Part shown: positions 13,195-59,222 of the stretch, piece after piece | How positions within the stretch are numbered: the first letter of the stretch is position 1 | How the letters are laid out: each line of letters starts with the position of its first letter | Source of the DNA: Acutalibacter sp. 1XD8-33 | GTDB lineage: Bacteria; Bacillota; Clostridia; Oscillospirales; Acutalibacteraceae | Assembly: GCF_003612555.1 (NCBI RefSeq) | Contig: NZ_RAZF01000001.1 | Location: 248,001-312,000, forward strand | Length of the DNA stretch: 64,000 nucleotides | Direction of reading: 5' to 3' | The notes under the pieces: model-generated | What the model saw: only the letters and a program-made list of their open reading frames with translations | The model's database searches: none | What the model was told of the DNA's origin: nothing | Program-made: the position numbers and the translations under genes

Positions 13195-13598
13195 GTGGGC
13201 CTCCGGCGGGGAGGGATTCCACCCCGCCAAACTATTTGAAAAAAGTTTGGATCAAAAACTTTTACCCTGGTTGGCTGTTTCGCACTCAGCTAACCAGGGT
13301 AAAGTTTTCGTCGTCTCAGCTTCCGGTTCGGTCGGCGCTTGACGGTCTCCATCGGAAACCAGCGTCCTTTTCAAAAAGTGGTAGGGTGTGGGGGTGAGCG
13401 TCTGCCAGTGGCAGACAAGCTGCGAACCGACCGAGCCAGCAGGCGAGACCCAAAGCCCCACACCCTTGCCGGAGACTGCGGTCTGTGCCGCCGAAGGCCC
13501 CCTACTACTCCCCAAAAATCACTGCTCCAGATGACTATAGGAGAGGACTTCACCCGCTTTATGAGTTTGTAATATTTCGTTTTCCATACATAAAGTAT
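13195..13598. repeat. left flank: 270-bp direct repeat carrying a vestige of atpC
   Basis: Bases 13287-13557 repeat 15445-15714 with only about a dozen differences. The end of this copy (about 13519-13557) corresponds to the last 13 codons of atpC, on the minus strand, with a 2-base insertion that breaks the frame (AGGAGAGG against AGGAGG). Bases 13423-13449 are a copy of the interspersed CGAACCGACCGAG motif. Bases 13220-13275 hold smaller AAACTTTTT-type inverted repeats. No functional gene is supported in the gap. Confidence 0.85.
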
Positions 13599-14172: not shown

Positions 14173-15452
14173 TTATTTTACCCATATCTTATATCCTACC
14201 ATATCTGTAAAATAATTCATTTTGACAAATTTCCCATAATCATGCCATCCATTCATTACAAAAAGATACGGGGTTCCTGTTGTGCTTTTAGCATATCCAA
14301 AATTGAACACGGAATGTCCTTGCTGAGCAAACAGGTTTTCTCTATATCTTAAGCTCAGATGGATAGGGCAGTTACCCTTTAACGCTGTTTCATATTCTGA
14401 AAAAGCAGCACCGTTTGGAATCTCCTTATAGTCCCAACTATAAAAGGGCCCAGCAGGAGTATAAGAATTTCTGATATCCACTCTTTATATTTTCCCTAGT
14501 TGTACCAGATGATGTACTGGTATTCATACACGTGGATATCCATTCGAATATTCGATTTTGTGTGTCGCTATCATAGGTAAATCCACTGACATACCAATGA
14601 TCCAAAACACTTCTTTTACCTCGTTTTTTCCCCCAATACCAAAGTATATTGGCAGCAGCTGTAGGGGCACAAACCCCTCCATCGCTAAAAGAACTCATCA
14701 GCCGATAGTCCGTTCCCTCACCAAAGTTTGATATTTTGAAAACAGAAGAGTTAGAGATTTTCGCTTCACTCCAGCTTATAATGCCGGGTCCAATCAAATC
14801 TTCATCCTGGCTACCGTAGGGAACAAGCTCTTCTTCACTTTGTAGAACTTCCTCAACTTTCTCTTTAGAAACCGTTTCACGGTTCTCAATAAAGAAATAG
14901 TCGTTTCCGTTACTAACAGCAAGATTACCCGAACCAATATATAACATTTTCTTATTATCAAGATCAGAAAAGGACAAACTTGCGGACGAGATTTCATCGT
15001 TTTCAACAGTTAAACATTGCGGTTCAACAAAAAAACTCATCGGCATCTTTATATAGTTCTTCCTCAACAGCGCTGATTGGCCCGTTGCCATCAAATGAAA
15101 ATTCAACGATGGGATCAGTTCCGTCAATCAAACTCAACATAACATACCCGGCACTGATACCATTAGCTTCAAATGTCATATAGCATCCGGTCAGATTGTC
15201 GTCATAGTCAAAAAGAGGCGAGACAGCTCTTACGGCAATATCCTTTTCTGGCTGTGAATCTCGCATAAAGCTATACCCATGATCCGTCATTTGTGCAATA
15301 CTGGTGTTGATCATTTCGAGCCTAGCAAGCTTTTCGCTCTCGGCCTGAGCTGTTAGACCAAAGCTCTCTATTGTCAAGATTGACAGAACGAGCAGAGTCG
15401 CCATCATTCTCATTGCCAGCATTATTTGGATAGTTTGAACGGTCCAGCTCAC
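14173..15452 (-). pseudogene. C39-like secreted cysteine peptidase, two frameshifts
   Basis: Three minus-strand frames join into one protein. The first (15452-15024) has a signal-peptide-like start (MMATLLVLSILTIESFG) and a pro-region. The second (about 15035-14465) contains GGVCAPTAAANILWYWG with the nucleophile Cys. The third (about 14475-14173) holds GHSVFNFGY with the catalytic His and VMNGWHDYG with Asn. The first break is at a run of seven T residues (minus strand, near 15031-15037), where six would restore the frame; the second is near 14465-14485. The 5' end runs into the repeat and lacks a ribosome site. Sequencing error at the homopolymer cannot be excluded for the first break. Confidence 0.75.
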
Positions 15453-15714
15453 AAGGGTAAAGTTTTCGTCGTCTCACCTTCCGGCTCGGTCGGCGCTTAA
15501 CGGTCTCCATCGGAAACCAGCGTCCTTTTCAAAAAGTGGTAGGGTGTGGGGGTGAGCGTCTGCCAGTGGCAGACAAGCTGCGAACCGACCGAGCCAGCAG
15601 GCGAGACCCAAAGCCCCACACCCTTGCCGGAGGCGGCGGTCTGTGCCGCCGAAGGCTCCCTACTACTCTCCAAAATCTCACTGCTCCAGATGGCTATAGG
15701 AGGACTTCACCCGC
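15445..15714. repeat. right flank: 270-bp direct repeat overlapping atpC 3' end
   Basis: Second copy of the repeat at 13287-13557. Here it continues without interruption into the body of atpC, so this is the original junction. It includes the atpC stop (15678-15680) and about 230 bp downstream, with the interspersed CGAACCGACCGAG motif at 15582-15608. Confidence 0.85.
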
Positions 15715-29043: not shown

Positions 29044-29569
29044 GGCGTTTTTGAGAGGTTTACGGGGGGCTTTTCGGGCGCAATGGCGCGTCCAGATTTC
29101 AGCGGGTAAGGCGCGCTCTCAGCTGGTACGCCTGTGCGCTCAGTCAGCCTTCTCCGGTACTAGGCCCCTTTTTCACTTGCAAAAAGGGGCCTCTTGCCGG
29201 CCTTCGTCCGGCAATTCACCACCAAAAATGCGCATCTCAGGAGTTTAAGGTCAAGAGATAAGACCTTGAGGGCGTTGGGTCTCAGCTGCCGCTTCGGTCG
29301 GTTCGCAGCGTGGTCTGCAATACTTGGCTTTGCCAAGTATCCGGCAGAACGCTCACCCCTCAAATTCCCACGAGCTTTTGAAGAAAGCTAAGACTTCGCA
29401 GAGCGAAGTCTGCAAAACTTTTACGGTGGTTAGGCTAGCTCGGCAAAAATATGTTAATTGTCTGCGACGAACGAAGTGAGGAAGCAGGGGAAAAGTTTTT
29501 GATCAAACTTTTTTCAAAAAGTTTGTGGGGTGTGGGGCAACGCCCCACACCTTAGAAAGGAGAAATCTC
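29044..29569. repeat. intergenic repeat mosaic
   Basis: 526 bases without a supported gene. Bases 29161-29191 form a hairpin around AGGCCCCTTTTT/AAAAAGGGGCCT that recurs at 56556-56586. Bases 29233-29260 carry the CTCAGGAGTTTAAGGTCAAG module. Bases 29279-29345 are a reversed GGTCTCAGCTGCCGCTTCGG / CTTGGCTTTGCCAAG module. Bases 29466-29560 (GACGAACGAAGTGAGGAAGC ... GTTTGTGGGGTGTGGGGCAA) are nearly identical to 44946-45041. Confidence 0.75.
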
Positions 29570-36815: not shown

Positions 36816-37248
36816 GGTCGTGGGACTCTGTCCCACACCCTGCAAGGGGCCTAACGCCCCTTGACCGCGTAATGTCACTCCTCATTACATTCGTCGTGAA
36901 GGTTTTATGTGTTTTGACGAGCTGACCGAACAACCGTAAAAGTTTCGTCAACCTTTTCAAAGGTTGCGGAGTGTGAGGCAGAGCCTCACGACCTTGCCCT
37001 TGACCTTAACACCTGAGAAGCGCAATTTTTGCGGGGTGAATTGGCGAGCGAAGTCTGCCAAGAGGGGGGCTTTTTGCAAGAATAAAAAGCCCCCCTGGAA
37101 ACCGGAGAAGGCCAGCTCTGTGGGCACGGAACGAGCCGCAAGACCCGCCCGGCCCTGTGCCCCGCAACCAAGTAACGCGCGCACCCACGTGCCCATATAA
37201 AAAATCCCATACTCTATCGAATTAGAAAAAATTTTTGGAGGTATCATC
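36816..37248. repeat. intergenic repeat mosaic
   Basis: 433 bases, no gene supported. Bases 36881-36965 carry reversed GTAAAAGTTTCGTCAACC-type modules. Bases 36990-37020 are a reversed copy of CTTCTCAGGTGTTAAGGTCA. Bases 37065-37097 form a hairpin of GGGGGGCTTTTT with AAAAAGCCCCCC. The block resembles 47700-47930 and 49840-50000 in order of parts. Confidence 0.7.
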
Positions 37249-40520: not shown

Positions 40521-40540
40521 CTTCCGGCTTACCGTGGGTT

Positions 40541-40645
40541 ATAGTTAACACGGTTCAAAAGAGGTAGGATACCTCTTTTGAACCAGGCGGCATAGCCGCC
40601 CAGCTTGAAAATCGGTAACTACCGATTTTCAAGTGTGTTTACTAT
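40541..40645. repeat. 105-bp cloverleaf element, copy 1
   Basis: Terminal inverted repeats ATAGTTAACAC / GTGTTTACTAT enclose three hairpins: 40552-40584 (GGTTCAAAAGAGGTA/TACCTCTTTTGAACC), 40586-40600 (GGCGGC/GCCGCC) and 40604-40633 (CTTGAAAATCGGTA/TACCGATTTTCAAG). Copy 2 at 56261-56365 is the same length in opposite orientation and mostly identical, with changes concentrated in loops. There is no coding capacity. Confidence 0.88.
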
Positions 40646-47666: not shown

Positions 47667-48160
47667 TGGGAATTTGCTTTTTTGAAGTGTTAGGAGGCCT
47701 TCGGCACACCGCGCCAAGCGAGGCAAAATGAGCAAGCTGGGTGTGAATGCTCGCCGCTGGCTGGTTCCAGAACTAGGAAACTTTTTTCTCAGTTGCAAAA
47801 GAGATTCATCTCGCACGGCGAGATGAACTCTCCGTTTCCTCTTGGCGCTTTGCGCCAATTCACCTTCAAAAAATGCGCTTCTCAGGTGTTAAGGTCAAGG
47901 GCAAGACCGTGGGACGTTGCTAAGGCACACCCTACCAGGGGCCTAGACGCCTGAGACTTGGCTACGCCAAGTCTTGGACCGCGCAATGTGTTGTGGCTGA
48001 GCTAAACCATATAAATCGTTCACGACGAACGTAGTGAGGAGTGGGTAAAAGTTTCGTCCATCTTTTCAAAGGTGGCGGAGGTGTGGAGGCAGAGCCTCCA
48101 CGACCTTGGGGAGGCCTTGACGAACCGAGAGCAATCCATTATAATAGGAGGGAACGAGAG
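47667..48160. repeat. composite hairpin repeat
   Basis: No gene in 494 bases. Hairpins at 47803-47826 (GATTCATCTCG/CGAGATGAAC type) and 47845-47857 (GGCGCTTTGCGCC) precede CTTCTCAGGTGTTAAGGTCA (47879-47898) and TGGGACGTTGCTAAGGCACA (47911-47930, shared with 21292-21311). Bases 48018-48080 carry the GACGAACGTAGTGAGGAGTG module. Order and spacing resemble 58690-58880. Confidence 0.75.
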
Positions 48161-49660: not shown

Positions 49661-50301
49661 TGAAAGAATAGCGCGAAGCGAAAGGAGACATTTTCCGCTC
49701 TCGCCGGGGCCTTTTGGTTTGCCGAAGCGCGGGCGGGAGATGTCTGCTTTTTTTGAGGGGGACTTCGTCCGCACGCCCAGCTATCCAGGGTAAAAGTTTC
49801 GCCAGCCTTTTCAAAGGCTGCAGGGGTTTGGGGACAGCGTCCCCAAGGTCTTGCACTTGACCTGAAACACCTGAGAAGCGTATTTTTGAAGTGTGAATAA
49901 TAGTTAACGCTCGCTGCGCTTGGTTAACTATCCGAGTTTTGCGAAGCAAAACTCTTAAGAGGAAACTTTTTACAAGGGAAAAAGTTTCCTGGAAACCGGA
50001 ACCCGCCAGCGCTATGTAGCTTTCGTTCGCTTTGCAGATGCAAAGCGAAACAAGAAACCCCCGACGAGGGTTTCTTGCGGAAAACAGTCCAGTGGACTGT
50101 TTTCCTATTTTCCTGCGTTGTTTTCTCAGGAGTTTAAGGGCAAGACCGTGGGGCTCCGCGCCCCACACCCCCGCCAGCTTAAGACCAGCTGGACCGGTCA
50201 ATGTTGTTCTGTAAATCGTTCACGACGAGCAAAGCGAGGAGTGGGTAAAAGTTTGTGGGGTGTGGGGTGAAATCCCACGACCTTAAGAGAGGAGGATGCC
50301 C
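49661..50301. repeat. composite hairpin repeats, two blocks
   Basis: 641 bases with no supported gene. Bases 49846-49990: reversed CACCTGAGAAGCG module, the hairpins ATAGTTAAC/GTTAACTAT (49910-49932) and GAGTTTTGC/GCAAAACTC (49935-49953), and AGGAAACTTTTT/AAAAAGTTTCCT (49960-49990). Bases 50026-50105: three adjacent perfect hairpins (50026-50049, 50051-50077, 50079-50105). Bases 50124-50155: TTCTCAGGAGTTTAAGGGCA. Bases 50219-50252: GACGAGCAAAGCGAGGAGTG. Confidence 0.75.
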
Positions 50302-52956
50302 ATGCGCAGGCTGACCGTAGGAATTCTGGCTCATGTGGACGCGGGAAAGACCACCCTGTCCGAGGCCCTTCTGTACCGGGGCGGCGCTCTGCGCAGCCTG
50401 GGCCGGGTGGACCACGCCGACGCCTTCCTGGATACCGAGGACCTGGAGCGGGAGCGGGGCATCACCATCTTCTCCAAGCAGGCGGTGCTCTCCCTGGAGG
50501 ACCTGGAGCTCACCCTGCTGGACACCCCCGGCCACGTGGACTTCTCCGCCGAGGCCGAACGCACCCTTCAGGTGCTGGACTGCGCCATTTTGGTGGTCTC
50601 CGGCCCGGACGGCCCCCAGGGCCACACCCTCACCCTCTGGCGGCTGCTGGAAAAGCATCGGGTCCCCGTGTTCCTGTTCCTCAACAAGATGGACCAGCCT
50701 GTGGACAAGGACGCCCTCCTGGAAAAGCTCCGGGCCGTCCTTTCCCGGGAAATTCTGGATTTCTCGGAGCACGGCCGGGACAGCTTTTGGGAGCAGGCGG
50801 CTCTGGGGGATGAGGCGGCCCTCAATGAGTACCTGGAAGGGGGCGGGCTCTCCGACGGCACCCTGGCCCGGCTGGTGGGGGAGAGGAAGCTCTTTCCCTG
50901 CCTCTTCGGCAGCGCTCTGAGGGCTCAGGGGGCCGGTGAACTCCTGGAGGCCATCCGCTGCTTTGCCCCGTCTCCCTCCTGGGGGGAGGCATTTGCCGCA
51001 CGTGTATTCAAAATTTCCCGGGACAGTCAGGGCGTCCGCCTCACCCATATGAAGATCACCGGGGGCTGCCTGCGGGTTAAGGACGTGGTGGACCTGCCCG
51101 GCGGCGGGGAAAAGGTGGACCAGATCCGCGTCTACTCCGGGGCCAGGTTCACCCCGGTCAGCGAGGCCCCGGCGGGTACGGTCTGCGCCGTGACGGGCCT
51201 GCTCTCCACCTTCCCCGGCCAGGGCATCGGGGCCCAGGGGCCCGCCGCCACCCATCCGGAGCTGGAGCCCGCCCTGGTCTACCGGCTGATCCTGCCCGAG
51301 GTGGTCCAGACCAACGCCGTGCTGCCCAAGCTCCGCCAGCTGGCCGAGGAGGACCCCCAGCTCCACCTGGAGTGGAAGGAGGCCATCGGGGAGATCCACC
51401 TGCGGCTGATGGGCAAGGTCCAGGCGGAGATCCTTAAGCGGGTAATCCTGGACCGGTTCGGGCTGGAGGTGGGGTTCGGCCCGGGGAATGTGGTGTACAA
51501 GGAGACCATCGCCGCCCCGGTGGAGGGGGTGGGGCATTTCGAACCCCTGCGCCACTACGCTGAGGTGCACCTGCTTTTGGAGCCCCTTCCCAGAGGCAGC
51601 GGCCTGGAGTTCGCCTCCGCCTGCCCGGAGGACGACCTGGCGCGCAGCTGGCAGCGGCTGATCCTCACCCATTTGGAGGAAAAGACCCACCGGGGGGTGC
51701 TGACGGGATCGGCCATCACGGACATGCGGATCATTCTGCTGGCCGGCCGGGCCCACGAGAAGCACACCGAGGGCGGCGACTTCCGCCAGGCCACCTACCG
51801 GGCTGTGCGCCAGGGGCTTCGGAAGGCCCGGTCCATCCTCTTGGAGCCCTGGTATAGCCTGCGTCTGGAATTGCCATCGCCCAACCTGGGGCGGGTCTTG
51901 ACGGACATCCAGCGCATGGGCGGGGAAGCGGATACGCCTCAGACAGTGGGGGAGGAGACGGTGCTCAACGCGGCGGTGCCCGTGGCGGCCTTCGGGGACT
52001 ATGCCGGGGAGCTGGCCGCCTACACCAAGGGACGGGGCCGGGTGGCCTGCACCCTGGAGGGTTACCGCCCCTGTGGGGACCAGGAGGAGGTCGTGACCCG
52101 GCTGGGCTATGACCCGGACCAGGACGTGGAGGACCCCACGGGCTCGGTGTTCTGCGCCCACGGGGCGGGCTTTCTGGTGCCCTGGGACCAGGTGGAGGCC
52201 TACATGCATCTGCCCGCCTACCCCATCCCCACAGAAGAGGAGGACCCCGTCCCTTTCGCCGGGGCCGGCCGCTCAGGGTCCGCTCCGCCGAATCCGTCAA
52301 AGGGGACGCTGGAGCAGGACGCGGAGCTGCTGGCCATCTTTGAGAGGACCTACGGCGCGGTGACCTACCGGGACTTCCAGCCCAAGGCCCCCAAAAAACC
52401 GGCGGAGTCTCTGGGAGGGAGAGTTGCGGTCCCTCCGCCGGACTCGGGTCCGGAATACCTTCTGGTGGACGGCTATAACATGATCTTCGCCTGGGAGGAC
52501 CTGAACGCCATCGCCCGGGAGGATCTGGAGGCCGCGCGTCTGGCCCTGATGGACATCCTCAGCAATTACCAGGGCTACCGGCAGAACCGGGTAATCCTGG
52601 TGTTCGACGCCTACAAGGTGCCCAAGGGGACGGGATCCGTGTTCCGCTATCACAACATCTATGTGGTGTACACCAAAGAGGCGGAAACCGCAGACGCCTA
52701 TATTGAAAAGACCAGCTATCAGCTCACCCGGGAAAAGCGGCGGGTGCGGGTGGCCACGGCGGACTTTGCGGAGCAGTTGATCATTCTGGGCCATGGGTCC
52801 CTGCGGATCTCCTCCCGGGAGCTGAGGGCAGAGGTGGAGCAGGCGGAGGGGGAGATTGCCGCCATATTGCGGGAGCGGCGCATGGCCCTGCGGGGGGCAA
52901 CTCTGGGAGACGTCCTGCGGAAGGCGGAAAAGAGGAAAAAGCGCAGGGGGGACTGA
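50302..52956 (+). CDS. TetM-like translation GTPase fused to a Rae1/YacP-type NYN nuclease domain
   Basis: 884 residues. About 1-650 are a ribosomal-protection-type GTPase of the EF-G family: P-loop AHVDAGKTT, switch I ERERGITI, DTPGHVDF, NKMD, then domains II-V with a TetM-like YTKGRGRVACTLEGY. After a Pro-rich linker, about 718-860 form a NYN/PIN domain closest to B. subtilis Rae1 (YacP): LLVDGYNMIFAW with Asp723, VILVFDAYKV, AETADAYIEK and VATADFAEQ retain the acidic site. Rae1 cuts mRNA in the ribosomal A site, where TetM-type GTPases also bind. The ATG at 50302 follows GAGAGGAGG. Drug resistance should not be assumed. Confidence 0.9.
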   Translation: MRRLTVGILAHVDAGKTTLSEALLYRGGALRSLGRVDHADAFLDTEDLERERGITIFSKQAVLSLEDLELTLLDTPGHVDFSAEAERTLQVLDCAILVVSGPDGPQGHTLTLWRLLEKHRVPVFLFLNKMDQPVDKDALLEKLRAVLSREILDFSEHGRDSFWEQAALGDEAALNEYLEGGGLSDGTLARLVGERKLFPCLFGSALRAQGAGELLEAIRCFAPSPSWGEAFAARVFKISRDSQGVRLTHMKITGGCLRVKDVVDLPGGGEKVDQIRVYSGARFTPVSEAPAGTVCAVTGLLSTFPGQGIGAQGPAATHPELEPALVYRLILPEVVQTNAVLPKLRQLAEEDPQLHLEWKEAIGEIHLRLMGKVQAEILKRVILDRFGLEVGFGPGNVVYKETIAAPVEGVGHFEPLRHYAEVHLLLEPLPRGSGLEFASACPEDDLARSWQRLILTHLEEKTHRGVLTGSAITDMRIILLAGRAHEKHTEGGDFRQATYRAVRQGLRKARSILLEPWYSLRLELPSPNLGRVLTDIQRMGGEADTPQTVGEETVLNAAVPVAAFGDYAGELAAYTKGRGRVACTLEGYRPCGDQEEVVTRLGYDPDQDVEDPTGSVFCAHGAGFLVPWDQVEAYMHLPAYPIPTEEEDPVPFAGAGRSGSAPPNPSKGTLEQDAELLAIFERTYGAVTYRDFQPKAPKKPAESLGGRVAVPPPDSGPEYLLVDGYNMIFAWEDLNAIAREDLEAARLALMDILSNYQGYRQNRVILVFDAYKVPKGTGSVFRYHNIYVVYTKEAETADAYIEKTSYQLTREKRRVRVATADFAEQLIILGHGSLRISSRELRAEVEQAEGEIAAILRERRMALRGATLGDVLRKAEKRKKRRGD

Positions 52957-54932: not shown

Positions 54933-56261
54933 ATGAATCTGCCGGAGGTTTTTCTAACGCGGATGCAGGCCCTGCTGGGGGCGGAATATCAGGCATTTTG
55001 GGAGGGATACAGGGAGCCAGCCTTCCGGGGCGTCCGGCTTAATCCTTTGAAATGCGGCGAGGATGTTCTGCGGGCCAGCCTGCCTTTTCCTCTTTTGCCC
55101 TCCGGTTTTGCGCCGGGGGCCTTTTACGGGGACTATCAAGAGGGGGTTGGCCGCTTGCCTGCCCATCATGCCGGAATGTTCTATTCCCAGGAGCCCTCGG
55201 CCTCTTCGGCGGTGACGGCTTTGGATCCCAGGCCTGGGGAGCGGGTGCTGGACCTGTGCGCCGCCCCGGGAGGAAAGTCTACCCAGATCGCCGGGCTGCT
55301 GATGGGCAAGGGCCTGCTATGGAGCAACGAAACTGTCCGGAGCCGCACAGGGGCGCTACTCTCGAACCTGGAGCGGCTGGGGGTGCTAAATGCCGTAGTT
55401 TCCTGCTGCCATCCGCAGCGGCTCTGTCAAGGACTGCGGGGGTATTTCCACAGGGTCCTGGTAGACGCGCCCTGCTCCGGAGAGGGGATGTTCCGGCGGA
55501 ATCCCCAGGCTGCGGCAGAATGGTCCCAGCAGGGGGTGGAGGCCTGCGCGGTGCGGCAGCTGGCAATTCTGGATTCAGCGGCGCTGGCGGTGGCAGGGGA
55601 TGGGGTGCTGGTCTACTCCACCTGCACTTTTTCTCCGGAAGAGAACGAAGGGGTGGTGAAGAAATTCCTTCTGGCCCACCCGGAGTTTGTGCCAGAGCCT
55701 ATTGAGGCTGGTTTCGGCCGGCCGGATTTGCGGGGCGGTCTGGCCCGGCGGATCTACCCCATGGACGGAGGCGAGGGACATTTTGTGGCGCGGTTCCGGC
55801 GGGTAGATGAGAATCTCTGCCGGATAGGGAGCTTTTCTGGGTATCTGGGAGAAAAGCAGGCCTTGGCCGGGCGGGAGCTCTGGGAGGAGCTGTTTCAGGT
55901 TCCCTATCCTGGGCGGCTGGCCCAGGTAAAGGATACCCTGCTCCTTGTGCCGGAGGAGCTGCCCGTGCTTTCCGGGCTGGGAGTTCTGCGGGCCGGGGTA
56001 GAGCTGGCCTGCCTGAGGAAGGGACGGCTGGAGCCTGCCCACGGGGTATTTATGAGTCGGGCGGGGGCGGACTGCCGCGGCGCCCTGAATTTTTCCCCGG
56101 AGAGCCCGGAGCTGGCGGCGTTCCTCCGGGGGGAGGAGATCGACTGCTCCCGCAAGGGCTACACGGCGGTGTGTGTCAACGGGGTGACGGTGGGTTTCGG
56201 CAAGGCCAGCGGCGGACGGTTGAAAAACCGGTATCCCAAAGGCCTGCGGAACCGTTCCTAA
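54933..56261 (+). CDS. RsmB/RsmF-type rRNA cytosine-C5 methyltransferase
   Basis: 442 residues. The Rossmann SAM-binding site is in VLDLCAAPGGKST; the two catalytic cysteines are in DAPCSGEGMF and YSTCTFSPEEN. A C-terminal PUA-like/RsmF accessory region follows (about 300-442). Methylates cytosine in 16S rRNA. The ATG at 54933 gives the usual N-terminus (MNLPEVFLTRM), but its ribosome site is weak; TTG at 54921 or the frame from 54846 are alternatives. Confidence 0.92.
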   Translation: MNLPEVFLTRMQALLGAEYQAFWEGYREPAFRGVRLNPLKCGEDVLRASLPFPLLPSGFAPGAFYGDYQEGVGRLPAHHAGMFYSQEPSASSAVTALDPRPGERVLDLCAAPGGKSTQIAGLLMGKGLLWSNETVRSRTGALLSNLERLGVLNAVVSCCHPQRLCQGLRGYFHRVLVDAPCSGEGMFRRNPQAAAEWSQQGVEACAVRQLAILDSAALAVAGDGVLVYSTCTFSPEENEGVVKKFLLAHPEFVPEPIEAGFGRPDLRGGLARRIYPMDGGEGHFVARFRRVDENLCRIGSFSGYLGEKQALAGRELWEELFQVPYPGRLAQVKDTLLLVPEELPVLSGLGVLRAGVELACLRKGRLEPAHGVFMSRAGADCRGALNFSPESPELAAFLRGEEIDCSRKGYTAVCVNGVTVGFGKASGGRLKNRYPKGLRNRS

Positions 56262-56365
56262 TAGTAAACGCACTTGAAAATCGGTAAATACGATTTTCAA
56301 GCTGGGCGGCTATGCCGCCTGGTTCAAAAGAGGTTATTCAGCCTCTTTTGAACTGTGTTAACTAT
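56261..56365. repeat. 105-bp cloverleaf element, copy 2 (inverted relative to copy 1)
   Basis: ATAGTAAAC ... GTTAACTAT termini enclose the same three hairpins as 40541-40645 in reverse order: CTTGAAAATCG type, GGCGGC/GCCGCC and GTTCAAAAGAGG type. It begins at the last base of the methyltransferase stop codon (56259-56261) and may serve as its transcript end. Confidence 0.88.
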
Positions 56366-56981
56366 AGAAGGCTGTACCAATAGAACGTAGCACGCCGGTT
56401 TTCCCATTCGGACCGGTTCATACCACAAATTATAGGTATACTTTTTGGGTGTTTTTATGGGGGGAACGGCGTGCGGGGTGACTTAGCGACAGGCACACAG
56501 CCTGACGGAAACTTTTGGCTGGGATACTGCGCACGCAGTTGGCCAGTTCCAGGACCAGGCCCCTTTTTCTCTTGCAAAAAGGGGCCTCTTAAGAGTTTTG
56601 CTTCGCAAAACTCGGATAGTTAACCGAGCACAGCGAGTGTTAACTATTATTCACACACCAGAAATGCGCTTCTCAGGAGTTAAGGTCAAGGTCGTGAGGC
56701 TCCGGGTCTCGCCTACCGGCTCGGTCGGCTCGCGGATTGTGTGCCACTGGCACACAGCGACCCCCTGGACCCGGCAATGTGCTCGGCTTTTGCACACTCA
56801 GCTAACCAGGTTAAAAGTTTTGTAGACTTCGCGTAGCGAATGTCTTACTTTTCTCAAAAGTGGCGTGGAGCAGAGCTCCACGACCTTGCCGCAGTGCGAA
56901 GCACGGAGGCTACACAAGTATTACGCTCAAAGGCTATACTTCTTAAGAGTTGTAGTAATAGAGGCTGAACAAGCGCGCTGG
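56366..56981. repeat. composite hairpin repeat and unique spacer
   Basis: 56366-56540 show nothing I recognise. 56556-56586: AGGCCCCTTTTT/AAAAAGGGGCCT hairpin. 56592-56612: GAGTTTTGC/GCAAAACTC. 56615-56647: ATAGTTAAC ... GTTAACTAT. 56668-56690: CTTCTCAGGAGTTAAGGTCA. 56705-56760: reversed GTCTCGCCTACCGGCTCGG module. This is the 49846-49990 block in opposite orientation with a different distal hairpin. No gene is supported. Confidence 0.75.
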
Positions 56982-58546: not shown

Positions 58547-59222
58547 ATGGTTCCTCCGTGTTTTCTATATTATTGGACGGCCTCCGGCGGCTTAGGGAAC
58601 TTTTTGAAAAAAGTTCCCTAAGAACCTTCAAAGACTTTTCCCTGGTTGATTGAGTGTTGTATGCGGCTGGCTTGCTCCGAAACTAGGGGGGCTTTTTATT
58701 CAGTTGCAAAAGAGTTTCATCTCGTTACACGAGATGAACTCTCCGCATCCCTCCGGTAAGAGTTTTGCAAAGCAAAACTCGGATAGTTAATCGAGCTGAG
58801 CGAGATTAACTATTATTCACACCTGCAAAAATTGCGCTTCTCAGGTGTTTAAGTTCAAGGGCAAGACCGTGGGACGTTGTCCCACACCCTACCAGGGGCC
58901 TGTCTCACCTGCCGGTTCGGTCGGGTCAAAACAATCGCCGCTGGCGGTTTTCCCCGCCCCTGGACCGCGCAATATGTTAGGGTTGAGCTAAAACATATAA
59001 ATTGTTCACGACGAACAAAGTGAGGAGTAGGTAAAATGTTTCGTAGACTTCGTTTTACGAAGTCTTACCTTTCTCAAAGGTTGCAGGGGTTTGGGGGCGC
59101 TGGTCCCCAGTGGGGACCGTCAAGCGCCGACCGAGCCGGGGAAGATTGCCGGTGGCAATCGTTCTGACCCGACCGAGTCGGCAGACGAGACCAGGCGAGA
59201 CCAGCGTCCCCAAGGTCTGGCC
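58547..59222. repeat. long repeat mosaic between aroB and tyrA
   Basis: 676 bases, no gene. 58711-58742: TTTCATCTCG/CGAGATGAAC hairpin. 58752-58779: GAGTTTTGC hairpin. 58783-58812: ATAGTTAAT/ATTAACTAT hairpin. 58838-58875: CTTCTCAGGTGTTTAAG module. 58902-58930: GTCTCACCTGCCGGTTCGG module. 59010-59035: GACGAACAAAGTGAGGAGTA. 59128-59192: two partial CCGACCGAG modules. This is the fullest composite in the window. Confidence 0.75.

Follow-up and report, generated by a model that had tools for sequence, protein, structure and literature searches.

A composite intergenic repeat of interchangeable hairpins, probably part of a nested mosaic of small mobile modules in a genome related to Acutalibacter

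The intergenic interval 49846-50166 of the window, the whole stretch of 64,000 nucleotides analysed here (C17:248001-312000, from a genome of 3.62 Mb in 106 contigs), is probably part of a mosaic of small, non-coding, non-autonomous mobile modules that are nested, spread recently and expanded mainly in this lineage. A module is built of a single hairpin or a few, connected through short conserved linkers. At a given site a module can be there in one paralogue or species and missing from another, and modules sit inside one another. One of them, termed E, makes a good candidate for an as yet undescribed small mobile element. The host, a gut bacterium, is related to Acutalibacter; the best named relatives of the RsmF gene in the window are Oscillospiraceae bacterium isolate B59_59_AM_H (70% identity) and Acutalibacter sp. 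1XD8-36 (68%).

Results

Two convergent composites in the focal interval

A preliminary description, made from the letters alone, claimed a fixed order of module, hairpin, hairpin and variable hairpin at 49846-49990. The order is present; it was read directly and its parts were placed exactly (Table 1). The A-core is the best-conserved part of the composite. Three abutting hairpins at 50026-50105, which the same description set beside the repeat, are there as well, but they are no annex of the first composite. They make up the centre of a second, oppositely oriented composite, whose own core at its end spans about 50112-50140, and the two focal cores face each other. In the predicted fold of 49774-50260 both cores pair with each other around the inner hairpins. 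Such an arrangement is not particular to this interval: in a 1.17 Mb sample, neighbouring cores at most 700 bp apart were convergent in 12 of 12 pairs (24 of the 131 cores).

Inverted recurrences had been placed near 56556-56690 and 58711-58875, and both were recovered by two routes. A repeat finder reported two pairs of inverted arms, 49866-49992/56555-56681 (127 nt, 87% complementary) and 49910-49957/58757-58804. Covariance model R1, built from 44 copies of this genome, matched 49863-49999 on the plus strand and the other composite copies of Table 1. The order had been called partial near 36990-37100 and 47790-47930; indeed, at 37005 and 47767 one short hairpin replaces the ATAGTTAAC plus GAGTTTTGC pair.

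Table 1. Composite repeats and E modules located in the window
Feature	Positions	Strand	Remarks
Left flanking hairpin, H2 type, TTTGGGGACAGCGTCCCCAA	49827-49846	+	stem sequence differs among copies
A-core: GGTC..GACC linker stem and AACACCTGAGAAGCG..GTGTGAAT	49847-49898 (also given as 49866-49898)	+	
ATAGTTAAC hairpin	49900-49931	+	
GAGTTTTGC hairpin, 3-nt loop	49934-49954	+	presence or absence differs among copies
Variable hairpin H6, here GGAAACTTTTT..AAAAAGTTTCC	49961-49989	+	
Terminal hairpin H7, CTGG..CCGGA..GCCAG	49989-50009	+	
Second, inverted composite: hairpin TTCGCTTTGC/GCAAAGCGAA	50026-50049	-	
Second composite: hairpin CAAGAAACCC/GGGTTTCTTG	50051-50077	-	
Second composite: hairpin GGAAAACAGTCC/GGACTGTTTTCC	50079-50105	-	
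A-core of second (class 2) composite with its H2 hairpin (50148-50166)	50112-50166	-	convergent with first core
Short-type composite copy	37005-37105	+	covariance model, 97.2 bits
Short-type composite copy	29154-29248	-	covariance model, 93.4 bits; missed by the preliminary description
Composite copy with GGAGAGTT..hairpin insert in H6	47767-47893	-	covariance model
Long-type composite copy	56549-56684	-	inverted-arm pairing and covariance model
Long-type composite copy, inside the 676-bp lineage-specific gap 58547-59222	58753-58852	-	covariance model and orthologous-gap comparison
E module, E4 type, in the loop of the CCAGGGGC..GGCCCCTGG hairpin	58902-58955	-	
E module adjoining the 56.6 kb composite	56706-56768	-	

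Other features of the window were recorded. Two intergenic blocks of 231 bp (13287-13517 and 15445-15675) are 96% identical, lie about 2.2 kb apart and each hold two E copies in opposite orientation. A different repeat of about 105 bp, GGTTCAAAAGAGGTA..CCAGGCGGCATAGCCGCC.., occurs at 56261-56366 and 40540-40645; it is about 80-93% identical across many congeners whose genes are only about 75% identical, has many copies in G011, G022, G026 and G027, and may be a genus-wide mobile repeat or a conserved RNA. Window 50296-52956 encodes an EF-G-like protein of the tetracycline ribosomal-protection type that scores 381 of 775 bits, well under the curated cut-off; resistance is therefore not implied.

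Architecture and covariation of the stems

The 1.17 Mb sample yielded about 100 long composite copies, plus about 19 of a shorter kind, "class 2". The left part of the composite comprises the variable hairpin H2, the linker GGTCTTGCCCTTGACCTTAA and the core hairpin CACCTGAGAAGCG..GTGAAT. The right part starts with either H5, a short TTG..CAA hairpin, or the ATAGTTAAC plus GAGTTTTGC pair, and continues with AAGAGG, the variable H6 and CTGG..CCGGA..GCCAG. At the position of the ATAGTTAAC hairpin, 100 long-type copies carry a GTTAA-type hairpin (47), H5 (51) or another one (2). The copies form linked subfamilies, and some H6 hairpins hold an inserted GGAGAGTT..hairpin. The earlier observation that the variable hairpin differs in each copy yet remains self-complementary holds, with H6 arms of GGGGAC, GGCCCC, GGGCGC, GGGGTGC and others, each accompanied by its matching complement. 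Elsewhere in the genome, for example from C17:374104 onward, two or three long hairpins (GGTTCGTCC.., GGGGAAACGGGC.., CATTTTGCGG..) stand in arrays, and copies differ in how many there are and in which order.

The stems vary by compensatory substitution and the linkers stay constant. In the 277 repeat regions of the sample, perfect stems of 7 bp or longer number 1008, versus 31 after shuffling. H5 takes 34 distinct forms among 52 copies, with CCTGAGAAGCG exact in 44 of the 52; stem pair 3 forms in 27 of the 34 and stem pair 6 in 30, versus maxima of 24 and 26 in 2000 shuffles. The H5 loop is a 3-nt GNA in 40 of 52 copies, and none has TNC, its complement. When all repeat regions are taken together, loops of 3 nt cap 594 of the 1008 perfect stems, and 193 of these loops read GNA or TNC. 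In DNA, a GNA triloop with a closing C-G pair is unusually stable, which suggests, but does not prove, that the folding entity is the DNA strands rather than RNA.

Copy number and confinement

The composite order recurs in about 100 places of the genome. A 12-mer of the core, ACCTGAGAAGCG, has 81 exact matches in the 3.62 Mb versus none for the reversed control, and thus the composite repeat is not due to chance. Among 59 relatives, of which 28 belong to the same genus, 13 have this 12-mer, with at most two per genome. A longer A-core pattern gave no stretch in the 84,980 GTDB species scanned, a collection from which the source genome may be absent. Model R1 finds 69 copies in the source genome, three in G005 and one each in G015, G024 and G026; the copies of G005 and G015 are diverged homologues with unchanged architecture. 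The core is therefore essentially confined to this species.

The whole set of modules has expanded mainly in this lineage. In 380 kb of contig C17, picked irrespective of the repeat, about 4.6% is repeat at a depth of at least 3, versus 0.3-0.9% in samples of three congeners. With 160-kb samples the load is 3.0% of bases at the same depth, versus 0.2-0.9% in three congeners sampled alike. Repeats occupy 64 of the 219 gaps of at least 30 bp on C17, and gaps that hold repeats have a median length of 402 bp versus 186 bp for the others, figures that rest on a crude gene finder. Rfam yields no match in the window, and E loci give only sub-threshold matches at chance level.

Presence and absence at equivalent sites

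Between two conserved genes, the gap 58547-59222 measures 676 bp in this genome; 12 relatives have 12-144 bp there, a range computed after subtraction of unaligned flank. The gap at about 47.67-48.15 kb measures about 490-510 bp between aligned blocks; it is 202 bp in G026, where it holds other modules, and 49 bp in G022. At C17:331.4-331.8 kb, where the flanking genes are 87-89% identical in G026, both species carry a composite and its halves are different.

Paralogous sites tell the same for single modules. When the flanks of E are joined, the result exists as uninterrupted sequence elsewhere in the genome for 118 of 131 copies, versus 71 of 262 controls; 16 of the 147 E copies, lacking a recognised left end, were omitted. 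A general scan of all modules gave 612 filled places with an empty counterpart, the modules being E, hairpins of 20, 22, 25 and 33 nt, and double hairpins of 57 nt. For 58 of 131 E copies the junction lies exactly within a hairpin loop that the joined site forms, versus 14.5% at random points. As a general rule for all modules, loop targeting was rejected (insertion points in loops 21.5% versus 25.1%), and it is therefore claimed for E only. The E types cluster on few target contexts and the copies are not independent; much of their spread may therefore reflect composite copying by recombination. A target-site duplication was not seen.

In a contig of a near relative a 1.05-kb piece (L161, G024:C2, 5189-6242), 99.4% identical to C17:294860-295913, ends exactly inside the composite and joins a different neighbourhood. 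The junction could stem from a horizontal transfer, from the repeat having been a point of rearrangement, or from a misassembly or assembly join in the metagenome. Metagenome assemblies may be misjoined at such repeats.

The E module and its spread

E ends at its 3′ side with CCGACCGA-NNC-GGCA-GNN-GAGAC or GAGAA. Pairs 8-17 and 9-16 of the 3′ stem occur as GC/AT and CG/GC/TA; they are paired in 95% and 98% of 147 copies versus 75% and 65% after shuffling. The exact end pattern has 175 matches in the source genome; 20 of 28 congeners carry it, the copy number per congener running from 0 to 118, as do 2 of 31 other genomes. It is also found in 17 of 393 other genomes from an even draw of the order and in 9 of 290 from a draw of the class, seven of these outside the order; reversed controls were zero throughout the genome searches. 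Among viral contigs 14 stretches match the E end, several of which are chance matches in long coding sequences. By nucleotide similarity, E has no match in phage records and only short, chance-like matches in plasmid records. A genome of another order of the class (G513:C9:96919-97170) carries four tandem E ends in 252 bp, with start-to-start distances of 52, 127 and 52.

Outside the genus, 41 distinct copies with an exact outer stem are 54-73 nt long; six others without such a stem were dropped. A first structure alignment, of 21 of the 41 copies, has 98.9% of its cells paired and a covariation of 0.340 (shuffled mean 0.105). A second, made of 16 of those copies and five rows from the window, has 94.5% of cells paired and a covariation of 0.436 (shuffled mean 0.125). 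Both lie far over the slid controls. The range of lengths rejects the idea that E is always a multiple of three. Freedom from stops in all six frames is likewise no general trait, being seen in 14 of the 41 outside copies and 9 of the 131 own copies (shuffled 8.5%).

E inside protein genes

Nine genic copies of E are in frame and two are out of frame; several share a site, so not all are independent. In topoisomerase III (TopB, L260), about 23 extra residues stand between positions 34 and 37, after which the alignment to the solved enzyme resumes. The frame of a relaxase (L290) runs on through E, and that of two TnpV genes (L261 and L275) is kept, with the profile resuming at position 19 in both. 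E is also read through in frame in a phage tail terminator (L248), once in L250 and twice in L258 in a phage methylase-like gene, and in an N-terminal ORF (L246) known by ORF evidence only. In TnpV L265 E is out of frame and the gene ends early; in TnpV L277 one base is missing in E, the frame is broken and the gene is decayed. Distant nucleotide searches with the E-bearing TnpV and relaxase gave no match in plasmids. In-frame hairpin insertions of this kind can go unnoticed in conserved genes such as topoisomerase III.

Relatives lacking E define the insertion at the nucleotide level. L310 and L311 read ATATGGG-A-CAGAACGC versus ATATGG-(E)-CAGAACGC in L250, a net gain of 63 nt; the comparison of L390-L397 with E-bearing L248 gives a net 66 nt. 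Genic E has a run of G on its left flank and no visible target duplication. The two copies of L258 (G282:C65) lie in one methylase-like gene. L250, from a different phage whose relatives of 88-90% identity have no E, carries it at the homologous site; E may have been inserted there more than once. Ten ORFs running through or beside E, including that of L248 already counted, were searched against Pfam, and nine were without family. The remaining ROK match (residues 133-433, opposite strand) is wholly downstream of E and was not counted as genic.

Discussion

The preliminary description called the repeat modular and evolving, and this is borne out by the covariation of the stems, the modules present or absent among paralogues at 612 places, the near confinement of the core to one species, and the gap of 676 versus 12-144 bp. 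The order proved conserved, and orthologous sites do not show an old, immobile sequence. What went beyond that first view is that modules nest, and that E is widespread outside the genus and enters genes.

The mosaic may arise as follows. Composites would be copied as units, sometimes as two convergent halves, which would give the fixed order; modules would be inserted or replaced at fixed junctions, making the hairpins interchangeable; and quasi-palindrome correction or selection would keep the arms complementary. The folded single strand is presumably what is recognised in movement. The G-run left flank of E, its lack of a visible target duplication and its fixed GAGAC/GAGAA end directly after a small hairpin, together with the frequent C-GNA-G loops of the composite, point to a trans-acting enzyme that would cut single-stranded hairpin ends. 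Since several genic E copies sit in genes of phages or conjugative elements, such elements perhaps supply it. Template switching between quasi-palindromes may account for the loop inversions and the arm correction, as a rival or a companion process.

Could the composites instead be structured RNAs that benefit the host, or bidirectional terminators or insulators, with the covariation arising from selection on RNA structure at each locus? The strong covariation with conserved linkers speaks for this, and on C17 repeats lie in 13 of 30 convergent versus 6 of 30 divergent gaps. In codirectional gaps, however, the core runs 47 times with the genes and 35 times against them, no Rfam family matches, and the orthologous gaps of the 12 relatives are without the material. 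The usual loops of RNA are of 4 nt, whereas those found here are mostly of 3 nt. We consider this explanation quite unlikely. Somewhat less improbable, though still doubtful, is a process without transposition, in which template switching and recombination between quasi-palindromes copy segments and correct arms to perfect complements. It would explain why loops occur in both orientations within the same stem (GCGAAGC and GCTTCGC), why the H6 loop is inverted at L061:8441, and the "half-hairpin" junctions; the insertion points over all modules, not being loop-specific, also fit it. Against it stands E, which is found at unrelated genes in other genera and in viral contigs, with close relatives free of it, and thus movement between unrelated sites is needed.

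A transposase-driven REP/BIME system, moved by RAYT or an IS200/IS605 Y1 enzyme, would share with the present modules the hairpins, the G-run left flank and the lack of a visible target duplication, and 7 of 14 E-bearing genomes do have Y1 genes. The other seven do not, even with weak sub-threshold matches counted as present, and they include near-complete genomes with 4-10 E copies; G010, on the other hand, has Y1 but no E. IS110 transposases, counted in the same way, are absent in 8 of the 14. The one intact Y1 gene of the source genome (L228) is an ordinary IS200-type locus without modules at its ends, repeat matches there being at most 1-3 per bin. E alignments A2 and A3 begin with GGTGC, GGCGC and similar, and neither has a GTAG or GTGG head. 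Because Y1 is absent in half of the E genomes and the intact Y1 locus is free of modules, the system was not filed as REP/BIME-RAYT, an assignment to which we give little probability. Neither Y1 nor IS110 tracks the presence of E, so neither is supported as mobiliser, and the search of these two candidates gave no mobilising gene.

A mosaic of nested mobile modules thus remains the favoured reading. A wider proposal is offered tentatively. E and the composite modules may together form an undescribed superfamily of gene-less mobile hairpins that phages and conjugative elements have carried across the Clostridia. Members would enter genes behind a run of G without target duplication and be tolerated there in frame. 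In some gut lineages it would overrun the intergenic space and nest hairpin in hairpin, moved by an enzyme that is neither Y1 nor IS110. The origin and the mover of gene-less palindromic repeats are a long-standing question. The many copies, the empty sites between species and paralogues and the E-less relatives of invaded genes make target preference, frame tolerance and the missing enzyme directly testable.

Comparison with known systems

In the open-access literature searched, four short stretches of E and the core appear in no paper, no paper joins Acutalibacter with both repetitive and palindromic DNA, and palindromic elements in genes of Clostridia are not reported. Fungal mitochondria harbour double-hairpin elements and translational bypassing elements, tiny mobile hairpins, genic or intergenic, which differ from the present modules in being organellar. 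Bypassing of E is unsupported; one frame-broken copy (L277) sits in a decayed gene.

IS1397, IS621 and ISKpn1 insert into REP palindromes (PMC1525189). They resemble the present case as mobile DNA that targets palindromes, but are full insertion sequences with transposase genes, whereas the units inserted here are gene-less hairpins of some 20-70 nt. REP/BIME and REPIN, as PMC2817692 portrays them, likewise are short intergenic palindromes with compensatory changes, mosaics of alternating units and more than 100 copies. Unlike the REP/BIME-RAYT system, E has no GTAG-type head in its alignments, no RAYT gene is flanked, and Y1 genes bear no relation to copy number.

In behaviour, E is closest to the Rickettsia palindromic elements (RPE), small palindromes that lie in frame within unrelated protein genes (PMC10969869). 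E does the same; the likeness is one of behaviour. Unlike RPE, E is 54-73 nt long, has been met in viral contigs and Clostridia, and nests within hairpins between genes as well.

In organisation, the closest systems are BOX, RUP and SPRITE of Streptococcus pneumoniae, which PMC3049150 presents as modular, nearly confined to the species (with one close relative) and inserted into each other; here the likeness is one of architecture. Like BOX (boxA-boxB-boxC, PMC3049150), the composite is intergenic and has a fixed module order, variable middle modules and strong secondary structure. Unlike it, there are far more kinds of module and deeper nesting, and one module reaches other genera and genes. 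BOX and RUP moreover have terminal inverted repeats and target duplications (PMC3049150), whereas no duplication has so far been seen here. With a composite organised like BOX or BIME and an E that behaves like RPE, the finding was filed as neither; it is best described as structured, gene-less mobile repeats, a known kind, unusual in their nesting, strongly covarying, and including one far-spread member that invades genes.
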